A stretch of DNA of 64,000 nt from Pseudomonas entomophila. GTDB lineage: Bacteria > Pseudomonadota > Gammaproteobacteria > Pseudomonadales > Pseudomonadaceae. Each line of letters begins with the position of its first letter. Positions within the stretch are counted from its first letter, which is position 1. A program made the position numbers and the translations under genes. A model generated the notes under the pieces. That model was not told the origin of the DNA. It saw only the letters and a program-made list of their open reading frames with translations, and did no database searches. The stretch covers positions 124,001 to 188,000 of the forward strand of contig NZ_JAAMQI010000002.1 in assembly GCF_013523165.1 (NCBI RefSeq), written 5' to 3'. Below are positions 54,659-63,064 of the stretch, piece after piece.

Positions 54659-55801
54659 ATGGGAACCATCACGCTTCGGAAGCGTAAGGATGGGTCTGCA
54701 GCGTACACCGCGCAGATCCGGATCATGAAGAAGGGTCAGTCAGTCTATCAGGAAAGCCAGACGTTCGATCGCAAGGCTACAGCGCAGGCCTGGATCAGGA
54801 AGCGCGAGGCCGAGCTACATGAGCCAGGCGCGATCGACAAGGCGAACCGCGGCGGCACCACGGTCAAGCACATGGTCGACCGTTACCTGGACCAGTACGA
54901 GAAGTTGCGCCCATTGGGCAAAACGAAACGCGCTACCCTGAACGCCATCAAGGAAACTTGGCTGGGTGAGGTTGCGGACACAGACCTAACCAGCCAGAAG
55001 CTGGTCGAGTACGCCATGTGGCGGATGGAGAACAGCGGCATTCAGGCACAGACTGTAGGCAACGACTTGGCGCATCTGGGCGCGGTCCTCTCCGTTGCGC
55101 GGCCGGCCTGGGGCTATGAAGTTGACCCGCACGCTATGCCCGACGCCCGGAAGGTGCTGAGGAAGATGGGCGCGGTCAGCAAAAGCCGCGAGCGAAACCG
55201 ACGGCCGACTCTGGACGAGCTTGAGCGCCTGCTAGCGTACTTCGACGAGATGCGCGACCGCCGCAAGCAGGAGATAGATATGCTTCGGGTGATGTTATTC
55301 GCGCTCTTCTCTACCCGGCGGCAGGAAGAGATCACACGCATACGCTGGGATTCGCTCAACGAAAAGGACCGGTCAGCCCTCATCACCGACATGAAGAACC
55401 CCGGGCAAAAGTACGGGAATGACGTGTGGTGCCATTTGCCGGACGAAGCCTGGCGCATCCTGCAGTCGATGCCGCGTGTAGCCAGCGAGGTTTTTCCGTA
55501 CAACTCGAGATCGATATCATCCTCGTTCACTAGGGCATGCAATTTTCTAGAGATCGACGACCTGCATTTTCACGACCTACGCCATGATGGCGTGAGCCGG
55601 CTTTTCGAAATGGGGTGGGATATCCCGAAGGTGGCCTCTGTTTCCGGTCACCGGGATTGGAACTCGATGCGGCGCTATACGCACCTGCGGGGGAATGGCG
55701 ATCCGTACGCGGGGTGGGGGTGGATCGACAGGGTGATAGCGGGCCCCGTGATCGAGGCCCGGAAGAGGGTCAGTAGACGCGTCGAAGACCGCGACCCATG
55801 A
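54659..55801 (+). CDS. int: Tyrosine-type site-specific integrase
   Basis: A 380-residue integrase. An N-terminal arm-binding region precedes a SAM-like core-binding domain (~65-160) and the catalytic domain with Arg in FSTRRQEEITR, HDLRHDG (HxxR), His in SGHRDW and nucleophile Tyr in MRRYTHL. It inserts the element at dusA. No strong ribosome site is seen. Its 3' end overlaps the convergent PrtN-like gene by 32 bp. The coding sequence is less GC-rich than its chromosomal neighbours. Confidence 0.94.
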   Translation: MGTITLRKRKDGSAAYTAQIRIMKKGQSVYQESQTFDRKATAQAWIRKREAELHEPGAIDKANRGGTTVKHMVDRYLDQYEKLRPLGKTKRATLNAIKETWLGEVADTDLTSQKLVEYAMWRMENSGIQAQTVGNDLAHLGAVLSVARPAWGYEVDPHAMPDARKVLRKMGAVSKSRERNRRPTLDELERLLAYFDEMRDRRKQEIDMLRVMLFALFSTRRQEEITRIRWDSLNEKDRSALITDMKNPGQKYGNDVWCHLPDEAWRILQSMPRVASEVFPYNSRSISSSFTRACNFLEIDDLHFHDLRHDGVSRLFEMGWDIPKVASVSGHRDWNSMRRYTHLRGNGDPYAGWGWIDRVIAGPVIEARKRVSRRVEDRDP

Positions 55802-56710: not shown

Positions 56711-57823
56711 TCATAGGGTTTCGAGATAGGCGGCTATGAAGTGCGCCGCCGCTTCAGCATTGATGGCGTTTCCGTAGGCGCGCAGGCGTCCCACTCGGCT
56801 GGGAGCCCCATGAGCCAGCGGGGATGTTCCGGGCTCAACTGGCCGCCACTTTCCATCCCTGCAGAAGAGCCAGTCAGCATCTGCCCACAGGCCGTTAACC
56901 GGACTGGGTGGTCGTGCATCAGATAGCGCACAGCATCCTTGAGGTTGACCTGATGGCCCTGGGAGCGGCGTGTTTCGGGATCTTGACCATTGCCGCGTAG
57001 GCTCTGGGGCGTCCCAGCGTTGGGGGTCGGCCAGCCGCTCAGCACTGCCGCGTGATTCAGCGTTATGTTCGGTGTCTTGAAGTCCTGCGACGGCTTTCTG
57101 TTCGAATCGCAGGCCGTTGGGCTTGGCCAGCCCGACAGCAGTGCTGACCCGCCCAGCGTCTGTAATCCGCGCCGTGTCTCGACCTGGTCCTTTGCGTTGG
57201 CCGTGGGAGTCGGCCATCCCACCAGGCAGGCCGCTGCCGCCAGGTCCAGACCATGATTGCGCATCGCTTCCATGAGGCCGCCTTCGAAGGTGCGCACCCC
57301 TTTTTCGGCCAGTGCTGCCGTGGGCGTGGGCCACCCAGTACGTGCGATCTCGGATGTGCGGAGCACCGACGCCCGCAGACGGGAACGCGACAGCCCCGAA
57401 GGCATAAGCCATGGCTTCCACGTCAGCTTGTACAAGGTCGAGCCAAGGATCTGCGTCCTTGCTTGCAACCTGCTCTCCAAAGACGACTGAAGGCTGGCGC
57501 TCGCGGATGAGCCAATGGAAGTGCGGCCACAGGTGCCGCTGGTCATCAAACCCAGCGCCCGCGCCTGCCGCGCTGAAAGGTTGGCACGGACAGGAACCGG
57601 TCCAAATAGGTCGATCGTCTGGCCAGCCGGCGCGGCGAAGGGCATAGGACCAAACGCCGACGCCGGCGAAGAAGTGGCATTGGGTGTAGGGCTTGAGGTC
57701 ATCAGGGTGTACGTCCTCGATCGAGCGTTCGTCAACGTCGCCTGGCGCGATGTGGCCAGCGGCAATAAGGTTGCGGAGCCACTGCGCGGCGTATATGTCG
57801 ATCTCGTTGTAATAGGCAGGCAT
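56711..57823 (-). CDS. Phage DNA (cytosine-5) methyltransferase
   Basis: A 370-residue C5-methyltransferase. Motif I is HFFAGVGVWSYALRRAG (residues ~50-66), motif IV with the catalytic Cys is TGSCPCQPFSAAG (~75-87), motif VI is VFGEQV, VIII is HIRDRTYWVA, and the late RAYGNAINAEAA is IX/X-like. The region between is long, repetitive and Gly/Asp-rich (LADPQ, MADSHG, LAKPNG), as in the variable target-recognition part. It likely protects phage DNA from host restriction. GAGG precedes the ATG by seven bases. A second open frame covers nearly the whole gene (57765-56734). Confidence 0.9.
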   Translation of the reverse strand: MPAYYNEIDIYAAQWLRNLIAAGHIAPGDVDERSIEDVHPDDLKPYTQCHFFAGVGVWSYALRRAGWPDDRPIWTGSCPCQPFSAAGAGAGFDDQRHLWPHFHWLIRERQPSVVFGEQVASKDADPWLDLVQADVEAMAYAFGAVAFPSAGVGAPHIRDRTYWVAHAHGSTGRKRGAHLRRRPHGSDAQSWSGPGGSGLPGGMADSHGQRKGPGRDTARITDAGRVSTAVGLAKPNGLRFEQKAVAGLQDTEHNAESRGSAERLADPQRWDAPEPTRQWSRSRNTPLPGPSGQPQGCCALSDARPPSPVNGLWADADWLFCRDGKWRPVEPGTSPLAHGAPSRVGRLRAYGNAINAEAAAHFIAAYLETL

Positions 57824-60994: not shown

Positions 60995-61378
60995 TCAGAC
61001 GTGAAGCTCGAAGGCCTCGGCCTTGCGAACGATTCGAACTTGGGCGGTGCGGCGCTCGGGCACGCGGCGGTCGCGGCGCATGGGGTCGCCCATGTCGATG
61101 GCGGCGTGCAGCGCGATGAGGCTGGCCAGCGCGATGCACAGGGGGCTGATGATCTGGCGGCTCATGGCCTTGGTGACGGCCTCGACACGCCGGCTGACCT
61201 GCATCTTGAACAGGGCCAGCTTCACGCGGTTGGCGGCGGTACCGGGGGTGGTGCCCATCTGGCGGGCGATCTCTTTCGTGGTGAGGCCTTGGGCGACCCA
61301 CAGCAGAGCTTCAAGCTCGCGTGGCGCCAGGGCATCGCCGAGCTGGCCAGTCCATGTACCGCAGGTGATCGTTTCCAT
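60995..61378 (-). CDS. LuxR-type HTH phage protein with C-terminal hydrophobic helix
   Basis: A 127-residue protein. Residues ~16-65 are a LuxR/GerE-type HTH (LAPRELEALLWVAQGLTTKEIARQMG then a recognition helix in TAANRVKLALFKM). Residues ~75-95 are hydrophobic (ISPLCIALASLIALHAAI), and the tail is Arg-rich. The HTH with a possible membrane helix is unusual. The ATG at 61378 is preferred; the frame stays open upstream into the hairpin. Confidence 0.75.
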   Translation of the reverse strand: METITCGTWTGQLGDALAPRELEALLWVAQGLTTKEIARQMGTTPGTAANRVKLALFKMQVSRRVEAVTKAMSRQIISPLCIALASLIALHAAIDMGDPMRRDRRVPERRTAQVRIVRKAEAFELHV

Positions 61379-61498
61379 AATCTGTCTCGGGGGACCGCAT
61401 TGGTCAGGCGCCAGGGCGGGTGACCAAACCCACGCGCAGCCGGAGGCGCGTGCCTGGCGTCTGCCAATGCAGTCGTATGTGAAGGGAAGGGGACGCGG

Positions 61499-61595
61499 GG
61501 TGCATCGGTGGATCAACTGATGAAGGACTACCCAGCCTCTCATGCTCCTGGCGAAGCTGGTCGAGTCATGAAGCCAGTTGCTCCACCGATGCACC
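61499..61595. repeat. 97-bp hairpin with 21-bp arms between csrA and the LuxR-type gene
   Basis: Arms 61499-61519 and 61575-61595 are complementary at 20 of 21 positions (GGTGCATCGGTGGAtCAACTG against the complement of CAGTTGCTCCACCGATGCAC plus C). The 55-base loop includes an AGGA on the minus strand. It lies in the transcript directly after csrA. Confidence 0.8.
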
Positions 61596-61649: not shown

Positions 61650-61829
61650 TCAGACGGCGGCCTCAGCTTCAGCCTTGATCCGCTCTTGGACCTCATGGCG
61701 GTGCACTGGCACGTCCTCTGGTGCCTCAATACCGATCCGCACTTGGTTGCCTTTGACGGCCAGAACGGTCACTCGGATGTTCTCGTTGATCACGATGGTT
61801 TCGCCCGTCTTGCGGGTCAGTATCAGCAT
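61650..61829 (-). CDS. csrA: Phage-encoded CsrA/RsmA-family RNA-binding regulator
   Basis: A 59-residue Csr[21 protein letters not shown], then [20 protein letters not shown], then [14 protein letters not shown]. The RNA-binding residues (L4, R6 near the start and VxRxE at the end of the second half, here VHRHEV) are present. It would bind GGA-bearing hairpins and alter translation or stability of host or phage mRNA. AGGAG lies seven bases before the ATG. First gene of the leftward early operon, with a ~400-nt leader. Confidence 0.93.
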
Positions 61830-62221
61830 GGTCCTACTCCTTGGTTGGTTTCCCGTCTGGCCCGCGTGTGCAGGCCAATCGGTGAAACCTCAGCGACCCG
61901 CTGCTGGCGTCGATCGCTGGCTGTTGTTCTGGCTGTAGATACAGGGTTACTCGCCACCCTGGTGGGCATTACTGCTCGCTGCTTCGAGCTGTGCCGGCGG
62001 AGCGCCTAATCTCGGCTCCGGCAGGGAGCGCTAACAGCGCAGGACGTTGGCTGCTGGGTCCAGATGCACCAGCGGGTCGTCCTGGCCCGGTCTCCAGAGC
62101 CAGGCATGGGCCAGTCCTAACTGGCATGGTCGACGACTTAGCTTGTGCCGACCCAGGTGATGGCCTGGGTGCGTCGAGGTGGTCACGTCTGGTTGTGTAA
62201 AGAGCGAGGCGGCTAGCGCCT

Positions 62222-62283
62222 ATAACCTGTGTTATGAAGCAAATCATAATCTATGTTTTCGTCCTGTCAATAACTCAGGTTAT
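62222..62283. promoter_or_regulatory. Left operator array (three sites) for the phage repressor
   Basis: ATAACCTGTGTTAT (62222), ATAATCTATGTTTT (62246) and ATAACTCAGGTTAT (62270) are spaced exactly 24 bp. Outer sites have perfect ATAAC/GTTAT arms. They cover the leftward promoter. Confidence 0.82.
62243..62270 (-). promoter_or_regulatory. Leftward early promoter (PL-like)
   Basis: On the minus strand TTGACA (62270-62265) and TATGAT (62248-62243) are separated by 16 bases. The middle operator lies on the -10 side and one outer operator on the -35 side. Confidence 0.82.
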
Positions 62284-62293
62284 AAATCGATCC

Positions 62294-62316
62294 AAAAAAA
62301 CCCGCTCAAGGCGGGT
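62294..62316 (-). terminator. Terminator of the repressor gene
   Basis: Read leftward: ACCCGC-CTTGA-GCGGGT followed by seven T. It lies 20 bp past the repressor stop and before the PL-like promoter. Confidence 0.88.
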
Positions 62317-62335
62317 TGTGCTTGGAAACGGGGGT

Positions 62336-62992
62336 TTAAAGCTTCATGAGTGCACGGACTACGACACCTACGATGCGGCAGTCGCCAGCGCACATTTCGG
62401 TAGGGTAGGCAGGATTTAAAGGCTTCAGGAATCGCCGCCCACCGTCTTCAACCAGCTTCTTGAAAGTCGCTTCGTTGCTATCGGCCAGCTTGGCAATAAC
62501 AAGCTTCCCATGCTGTGCGTCAGCCTCAGTGTCCACGAGGATCAGAGTGCCCTCGACGATGCTTTGGCCAACGGGGGAAGTCATCGAGTCCCCTTTGACT
62601 TCCAGCCAGAAGGCTGGACCTTTGGCCTCGTATTCGGACATCTCATAACGGTCCGAAAAGCCTGGGGGAAAGGGCTCGACAGCCTCAGCCCAAGCGCCAG
62701 CAGCAACCCAGCTGATTACTGGGTAGCGATACGTCATCTCGGGGTTGCGCGCTGGAGCAACGTTTCTGACTCGGCCATGACTTTCGGTTCCAGATGCCAG
62801 CCACTCAGCAGTCACGCCGAGAGCCTTGGCGATCTCAAGCAGCTTTTTCGAAGACGAGTTCCGGCCGCTCTCCAGGTGCTGGATGGTCACCTGGCTTACC
62901 CCTGCCTTATCAGCGAGCTGCTGCTGGCTCAAACCTAGGGCTTGCCGCTTCGAATGGAGCCGGTCTTTCAGTGCAAGGGTATGTGTATTCAT
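62336..62992 (-). CDS. CI-like repressor with S24 autocleavage domain
   Basis: A 218-residue prophage repressor. HTH: LSQQQLADKAGVSQVTIQHLE (~residues 18-38). The C-terminal LexA/CI domain has the cleavage pair Ala-Gly in SWVAAGAWAE, nucleophile Ser in KGDSMTSP and Lys in HGKLVIAKL. It keeps the prophage silent and is inactivated by RecA after DNA damage. The ATG at 62992 starts the conserved HTH; upstream in-frame sequence overlaps the operators. Flanked by two operator arrays. Confidence 0.94.
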   Translation of the reverse strand: MNTHTLALKDRLHSKRQALGLSQQQLADKAGVSQVTIQHLESGRNSSSKKLLEIAKALGVTAEWLASGTESHGRVRNVAPARNPEMTYRYPVISWVAAGAWAEAVEPFPPGFSDRYEMSEYEAKGPAFWLEVKGDSMTSPVGQSIVEGTLILVDTEADAQHGKLVIAKLADSNEATFKKLVEDGGRRFLKPLNPAYPTEMCAGDCRIVGVVVRALMKL

Positions 62993-63004
62993 AAGCGCAA
63001 GGGT

Positions 63005-63064
63005 AAAACACGCGTTATCACCCTTCAAATAACATGTGTTTGCGTCTTCTATAACTTGGGTTAT
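63005..63064. promoter_or_regulatory. Right operator array (three sites) between repressor and cro-like genes
   Basis: AAAACACGCGTTAT (63005), ATAACATGTGTTTG (63029) and ATAACTTGGGTTAT (63051) are 24 and 22 bp apart and share the ATAAC-N4-GTTAT dyad of the left array. The last is perfect. A TATCAT at 63062 may be the -10 of the rightward promoter. Confidence 0.82.

Follow-up and report, generated by a model that had tools for sequence, protein, structure and literature searches.

A proposed lambda-type, six-site repressor switch in a Pseudomonas entomophila prophage

Genes, promoters and operators of the region

The window, by which we mean the whole 64,000-nucleotide stretch of P. entomophila DNA that was analyzed, contains a CI-type repressor gene with three related 14-bp dyads on either side of it and a Cro-like gene reading away from it. 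The features are listed below in window coordinates; the dyads carry no strand, and "relatives" are the 13 loci fetched by protein that are described in the next section.

61650–61829, minus strand: csrA/rsmA homologue (1.2e-25), the first recognised gene left of PL
62198–62206, minus strand: boxA-like CGCTCTTTA within the leader of PL; 21 of the 28 distinct OL regions have it
62222–62235: left operator a, ATAACCTGTGTTAT, perfect dyad immediately downstream of the PL −10; perfect in 12/12 readable relatives
62243–62270, minus strand: PL, TTGACA-N16-TATGAT, leftward, 11/12 matches in a consensus scan
62246–62259: left operator b, ATAATCTATGTTTT, 2 mismatches, overlaps the PL −10; 1–2 mismatches in 12/12 readable relatives
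62270–62283: left operator c, ATAACTCAGGTTAT, perfect dyad touching the PL −35; perfect in 12/12 readable relatives
62299–62317, minus strand: terminator-like hairpin and T run between repressor and OL, one found
62336–62992, minus strand: CI-type repressor, 218 aa, HTH_3 (5.7e-16) and Peptidase_S24 (3.8e-27), recognition helix SQVTIQH
63000–63028, minus strand: probable PRM, TTGAAG-N17-TACCCT, weak; predicted transcript start at or next to the repressor ATG (leaderless)
63005–63018: OR3, AAAACACGCGTTAT, 1 mismatch, overlaps the PRM −10; 1 mismatch in 13/13 relatives
63029–63042: OR2, ATAACATGTGTTTG, 2 mismatches, abuts the PRM −35 and has its TTG in common with the PR −35; 2 mismatches in 12/13 relatives, 5 in L033
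63040–63067, plus strand: probable PR, TTGCGT-N16-TATCAT, rightward; similar in relatives by eye
63051–63064: OR1, ATAACTTGGGTTAT, perfect dyad, overlaps the PR −10; perfect in 12/13 relatives, 2 mismatches in L033
63100–63330, plus strand: Cro-like protein of the Pfam YdaS_toxin family, 76 aa (2.7e-18), phrog_35 transcriptional repressor

The repressor has the architecture of lambdoid S24-type CI proteins, with an N-terminal HTH and a C-terminal Peptidase_S24 domain. It matches lambda repressor (3bdn, 1.8e-33), in an alignment that spans residues 9–213 of 218 and places the Ala-Gly cleavage site together with the catalytic Ser and Lys; it also matches 434 repressor (9.7e-12) and P22 c2 (E 0.003). 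The divergent YdaS/phrog_35 protein behind PR is a putative Cro. To the right of the window lie O-like, DnaB, Q, holin and terminase genes, so that replication and Q functions are found downstream of PR.

Several further features of the element were recorded in passing. On the PL side, csrA is adjoined by a gene (60995–61594, minus strand) that matches phrog_3282, "sigma factor", and a LuxR-type HTH; one regular expression picked up a CsrA-type start on the left side of OL in 10 of the 38 sequences, three of the ten being this same locus. A phage C-5 cytosine methylase gene occupies 56711–57823 (minus strand). A 27-bp direct repeat at 54742–54768, within the 5′ portion of the integrase gene (54659–55801), has a far copy at G000:C22:220161-220187 within a second, truncated integrase N-terminus. 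If the repeats are attL and attR, the prophage is ∼41.4 kb long with its core inside int; they could also be plain homology between two int genes. Outside the window, a second tyrosine-recombinase gene (L004:11986-13323) lies between the DnaB helicase and Q genes.

A pattern scan recovered all six of the dyads that the sequence-only reading had reported, with 0, 2, 0, 1, 2 and 0 mismatches to ATAAC-N4-GTTAT from left to right and with spacings of 24/24 in the left group, exactly as claimed, and 24/22 in the right group, which indeed lies (63005–63064) between the repressor and the YdaS-family gene. The TTGACA-N16-TATGAT promoter placed under the left group is likewise present, on the minus strand from 62270 to 62243. 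The description of outer sites as perfect and inner ones as degenerate holds for the left group and fails for the right, where only 63051 is perfect and the outer site 63005 has one mismatch.

With up to two mismatches allowed, the window contains 10 matches to the dyad, where 100 shuffles average 3.23 and reach 9 at most, and all three perfect copies in the 4.39-Mb genome are in this region, with no equal match elsewhere; a backwards control pattern occurs twice per strand in the whole genome. When 5-bp half-sites and gaps were scanned freely, ATAAC-N4-GTTAT was the top-scoring motif of the region. With the choice of motif left free in this way the 901-bp region scores 13, and the highest of its 300 shuffles reaches 11. 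Of 69 other 900-bp stretches in the window, however, at least five reach 14–19, these scores arising from GC-rich near-matches with 0–1 perfect sites. Because the statistics of a single window are thus moderate, the case rests on the comparison with relatives.

At PL, the TGTCA motif recurs in 27 of 28 distinct OL regions, and PR and PRM did not appear in the output of the consensus promoter scan. The PRM −10 ends 7 nt ahead of the repressor ATG, and the same 7-nt gap was seen by eye in the relatives inspected. The sequence CGCTCTTTA, which resembles the boxA consensus, is a possible nutL antitermination site. In the leader (62151–62206, minus strand) boxA is followed by a hairpin, ACCCAGG-N6-CCTGGGT (62170–62151), which is present in several relatives and has a compensatory pair change in its stem in L007; boxA and hairpin together are possibly a nut-like element. 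The single terminator-like hairpin compares with a shuffle mean of 1.2, by itself not above chance, and similar GC hairpins were seen by eye in most OL regions.

Conservation of the operator arrays

A contig of P. entomophila 6C6 encodes a 99% identical repressor, and among the first 22 repressor loci inspected 12 carry ATAAC arrays, seven carry arrays of a second dyad, ATAAG-N4-CTTAT, and three have no clear array. Across 27 distinct OR regions the mean column entropy is 0.02 bit in the half-sites versus 0.41 in the centres, and across 28 distinct OL regions it is 0.07 versus 1.01 bit (own locus included in both). Since perfect OR1 and outer OL half-sites were the entry condition for these sets, the evidence they add comes from OR2, OR3 and OL-b alone; L378, L379 and L033, which share the helix and have no perfect OR1, were excluded on that ground. 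The variant half-site AAAAC/GTTTT is invariant at OR3 and is also the usual form at OL-b.

Conservation was therefore re-examined on loci fetched by protein only: 13 loci with the helix SQVTI[QN]H, no site required and our own locus excluded. They include several near-duplicates, with nine distinct OR regions. The OR mismatches, read from OR1 to OR3, are 0/2/1 in 12 of the 13 (2/5/1 in L033), with the spacing fixed at 22/24. At OL, which is unreadable in L011 because the sequence ends before it, the pattern is 0/1–2/0 in 12 of 12 loci with the spacing fixed at 24/24. The comparison of spacing with related prophages that the sequence-only reading called for thus shows both the graded pattern and the distances kept.

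The sites can also be approached from the DNA side. Searched by pattern alone, the outer OL pair was found in 6 of 398 genomes of the genus (own included; backwards control 0), and all six loci holding it encode the helix SQVTIQH (five by regular expression, plus L377). None of the 368 other genomes searched in the class had it, a result that serves as a negative control only.

The interval between cI and OL varies from 52 to 2081 bp across relatives, and the longer intervals contain ORFs. Lambda carries rex at the matching place. In L018, L159, L190, L224 and L228 the interval is 1.2–2.1 kb with extra ORFs, and it is a possible cargo spot at the rex position. Separately, L107, L116 and L117 have mosaic repressors in which the C-terminal domain is similar and the HTH domains are quite different.

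Recognition helices and operator half-sites

The helix was compared with the operator over loci gathered by DNA pattern (pairs of ATAAC or ATAAG sites), in which those from viral contigs are the matches listed, samples rather than censuses, and to which a second locus of our own genome (L135, below) was added. A repressor was present in 229 of 246 loci; the 17 without a repressor match were dropped and the truncated HTH of L189 was left out. Among the matches listed, helix residues +5 and +6 split the two kinds of array completely. Specifically, in 64 distinct HTHs from ATAAC loci residue +5 is Q, K, Y, R, H or N and +6 is K, H or, rarely, A, while in 82 distinct HTHs from ATAAG loci +5 is S, A or T and +6 is Q or W. 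When the HTHs are grouped at 60% identity with the helix left aside, six ATAAC groups, four ATAAG groups and no mixed group result, and columns outside the helix hold up to 0.88 bit about operator class; lineage therefore accounts for part of the association.

A strict two-residue rule was then applied to new loci, a "new" HTH being any string not identical to a training HTH, so that some differ by few residues. Of the 107 new loci among the matches listed, 40 lacked a repressor within 4.5 kb, and each distinct HTH entered the count a single time. For 31 new HTHs the rule was right in 20, wrong in one and gave no call in 10, with 1 of 5 right on the ATAAG side; it is too strict for new loci. 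Residue +6 alone, picked after the fact, is K, H or A in 25 of 26 new ATAAC HTHs, while of the five new ATAAG HTHs one fits, one is wrong and three cannot be called. On this retrospective reading +6 would carry most of the helix signal on the ATAAC side. The sequence association between helix and operator is solid for ATAAC and poorly tested for ATAAG. Two other sources of held-out loci were discarded. The named Pseudomonas phages psageK9, MR15, Medea1, Cruim01 and Aurca01 have different recognition helices, and the stretches fetched contain neither dyad at up to one mismatch, which makes them uninformative about the helix rule; the class-level genomes gave no match besides our own.

The Cro protein also changes with the operator class among the matches listed. 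All 21 distinct proteins at ATAAC loci have SQPRIWQC, while among 28 distinct proteins at ATAAG loci 16 have SQAAVSYW, six have TQAAVSYW and four are not Cro-like.

Our genome holds a second CI-type gene, 71% identical to the first (L135, G000:C11:309281-310015), and exactly two perfect ATAAG-N4-CTTAT dyads, both beside it. A simple ORF search found no YdaS-type Cro next to it, and three of the eight neighbouring ORFs scanned have Pfam matches (DUF2514, chemotaxis receptor, MFS transporter); this element is possibly a tailocin or else a remnant. Both classes also occur in P. entomophila 6C6, with one ATAAC and one ATAAG locus (L032, L036). This suggests two repressors in one genome with separate addresses and fits heteroimmunity without proving it. 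A broader reading, which we put forward tentatively and at somewhat less than even odds, is that a single operator code, common to Pseudomonas and enterobacterial prophages, comes in an ATAAC and an ATAAG version and is read mainly by one helix residue (K/H for C, Q for G), and that Cro and CI are distinguished at the AAAAC half-site. With one base changed per half-site, homologous repressors would then ignore each other, and two elements could share a chromosome as they do in this genome.

With two related CI-type repressors whose operators differ by one base, this genome lends itself to testing how immunity specificity diverges. The case extends a correlation between helix and half-site published for Cro proteins by Hall, Lefevre and Cordes (2005), as cited and described in PMC4997575.

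The proposed switch, its alternatives and known systems

We read the region, with a probability of about 0.93, as the immunity region of a lambda-type prophage in which a CI-type repressor acts at three OL and three OR sites, shuts PL and PR, probably stimulates its own promoter and faces competition from Cro. The observed basis is the sites, the genes, the promoter overlaps, the conservation and the helix/operator association, and it bears out the earlier proposal of an OL/OR layout around a CI-type repressor in gene content and promoter placement as well as in relatives. Two groups of three operators flank cI over PL and PR, the PR match being weak. From these sequences we infer repressor binding at the six sites, autoactivation, a leaderless PRM mRNA, autocleavage and Cro binding. 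The repressor (62336–62992) would bind as a dimer at the three sites on each side and thereby shut off both promoters, and from OR2, abutting the PRM −35, it would probably stimulate its own transcription. DNA damage would lead to RecA-aided self-cleavage at Ala-Gly and so free PL and PR. Expressed from PR, the YdaS-type Cro would rival the repressor at these sites and turn PRM off. The prophage appears to be kept off by a two-sided six-site switch with its own DNA address code.

The alternative that survives best keeps the same sites and the same repressor and has the dimers bind independently, without cooperativity or a loop, as in phage 933W. We consider this rather unlikely. Fixed helical phasing between OL and OR was tried as a sign of looping and dropped for lack of a clear signal: the 20 distinct OL–OR distances, which lie between 781 and 2831 bp, give R of 0.13 at 10.5 bp, 0.27 at 10.4 and 0.35 at 10.6. 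However, kilobase-scale loops require no fixed phase, the C-terminal S24 domain closely matches that of lambda, and a spacing of 22–24 bp suits adjacent dimers as in lambda. Three sites nevertheless do not guarantee cooperative binding, since the 933W repressor is reported to lack it at its OR sites (PMC3317979).

Much less credible is that the dyads are mainly Cro sites for lytic shut-off, CI using other sequences. The change of Cro with operator class and the distribution of the AAAAC/GTTTT half-site would fit this, but the operator base is tracked by CI recognition-helix residues and the dyad is the best-scoring motif of the region; both proteins would track the operator because both share the sites, as in lambda. 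A chance cluster of AT-rich dyads at promoters has next to nothing to recommend it, because, whatever the motif-choice scores of other stretches, which alone are not decisive, relatives that were fetched with no site required show the graded pattern and the spacing again, and the outer pair is absent from the 368 other genomes of the class that were searched.

Lambda, 434 and P22 share the same general plan as the switch proposed here. As in lambda, cI is flanked by OL/PL and OR/PR with three sites each and Cro across OR, the S24 domain aligns in its cleavage and catalytic residues, and cI is probably leaderless. Unlike lambda, with its 17-bp sites, the dyads here are 14-bp ATAAC sites, the Cro is of the YdaS type, and OL follows cI after 52 bp with no ORF found between. 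The specificity is therefore not that of imm-lambda: operator ATAAC-N4-GTTAT goes with helix SQVTIQH. The 434-type HTH (E 9.7e-12) and a 14-bp site are shared with phage 434, whereas the half-sites are ACAA in 434 and TTAAG in P22.

The sequence-only reading called the dyad new, and it is not unique: among the matches listed many viral contigs carry it, as does coliphage HK639. The latter has three perfect ATAAC-N4-GTTAT sites at OR, one perfect and two 1-mismatch dyads around an annotated putative pL, and the helix SQPAIQK; it differs in HTH lineage and in an OL ∼2.6 kb away from the start of cI. The fetched part of the HK639 record annotates putative pL and pR and no operators. No description of an ATAAC-N4-GTTAT operator was found in titles and the beginnings of abstracts among the papers listed, which does not establish its absence from print. 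As in Rac and CP-933P, a YdaS-family protein is divergent from the repressor; unlike there, YdaT was not identified here by searches without a dedicated YdaT model. For Rac, the case has been made that YdaS and YdaT correspond to Cro and CII and are not toxins (PMC5917428). The locus is thus a well-supported new example of the known lambda-type OL/OR switch: a cleanly delimited, conserved case from beyond the enteric bacteria, whose operator code is defined and has natural variants.
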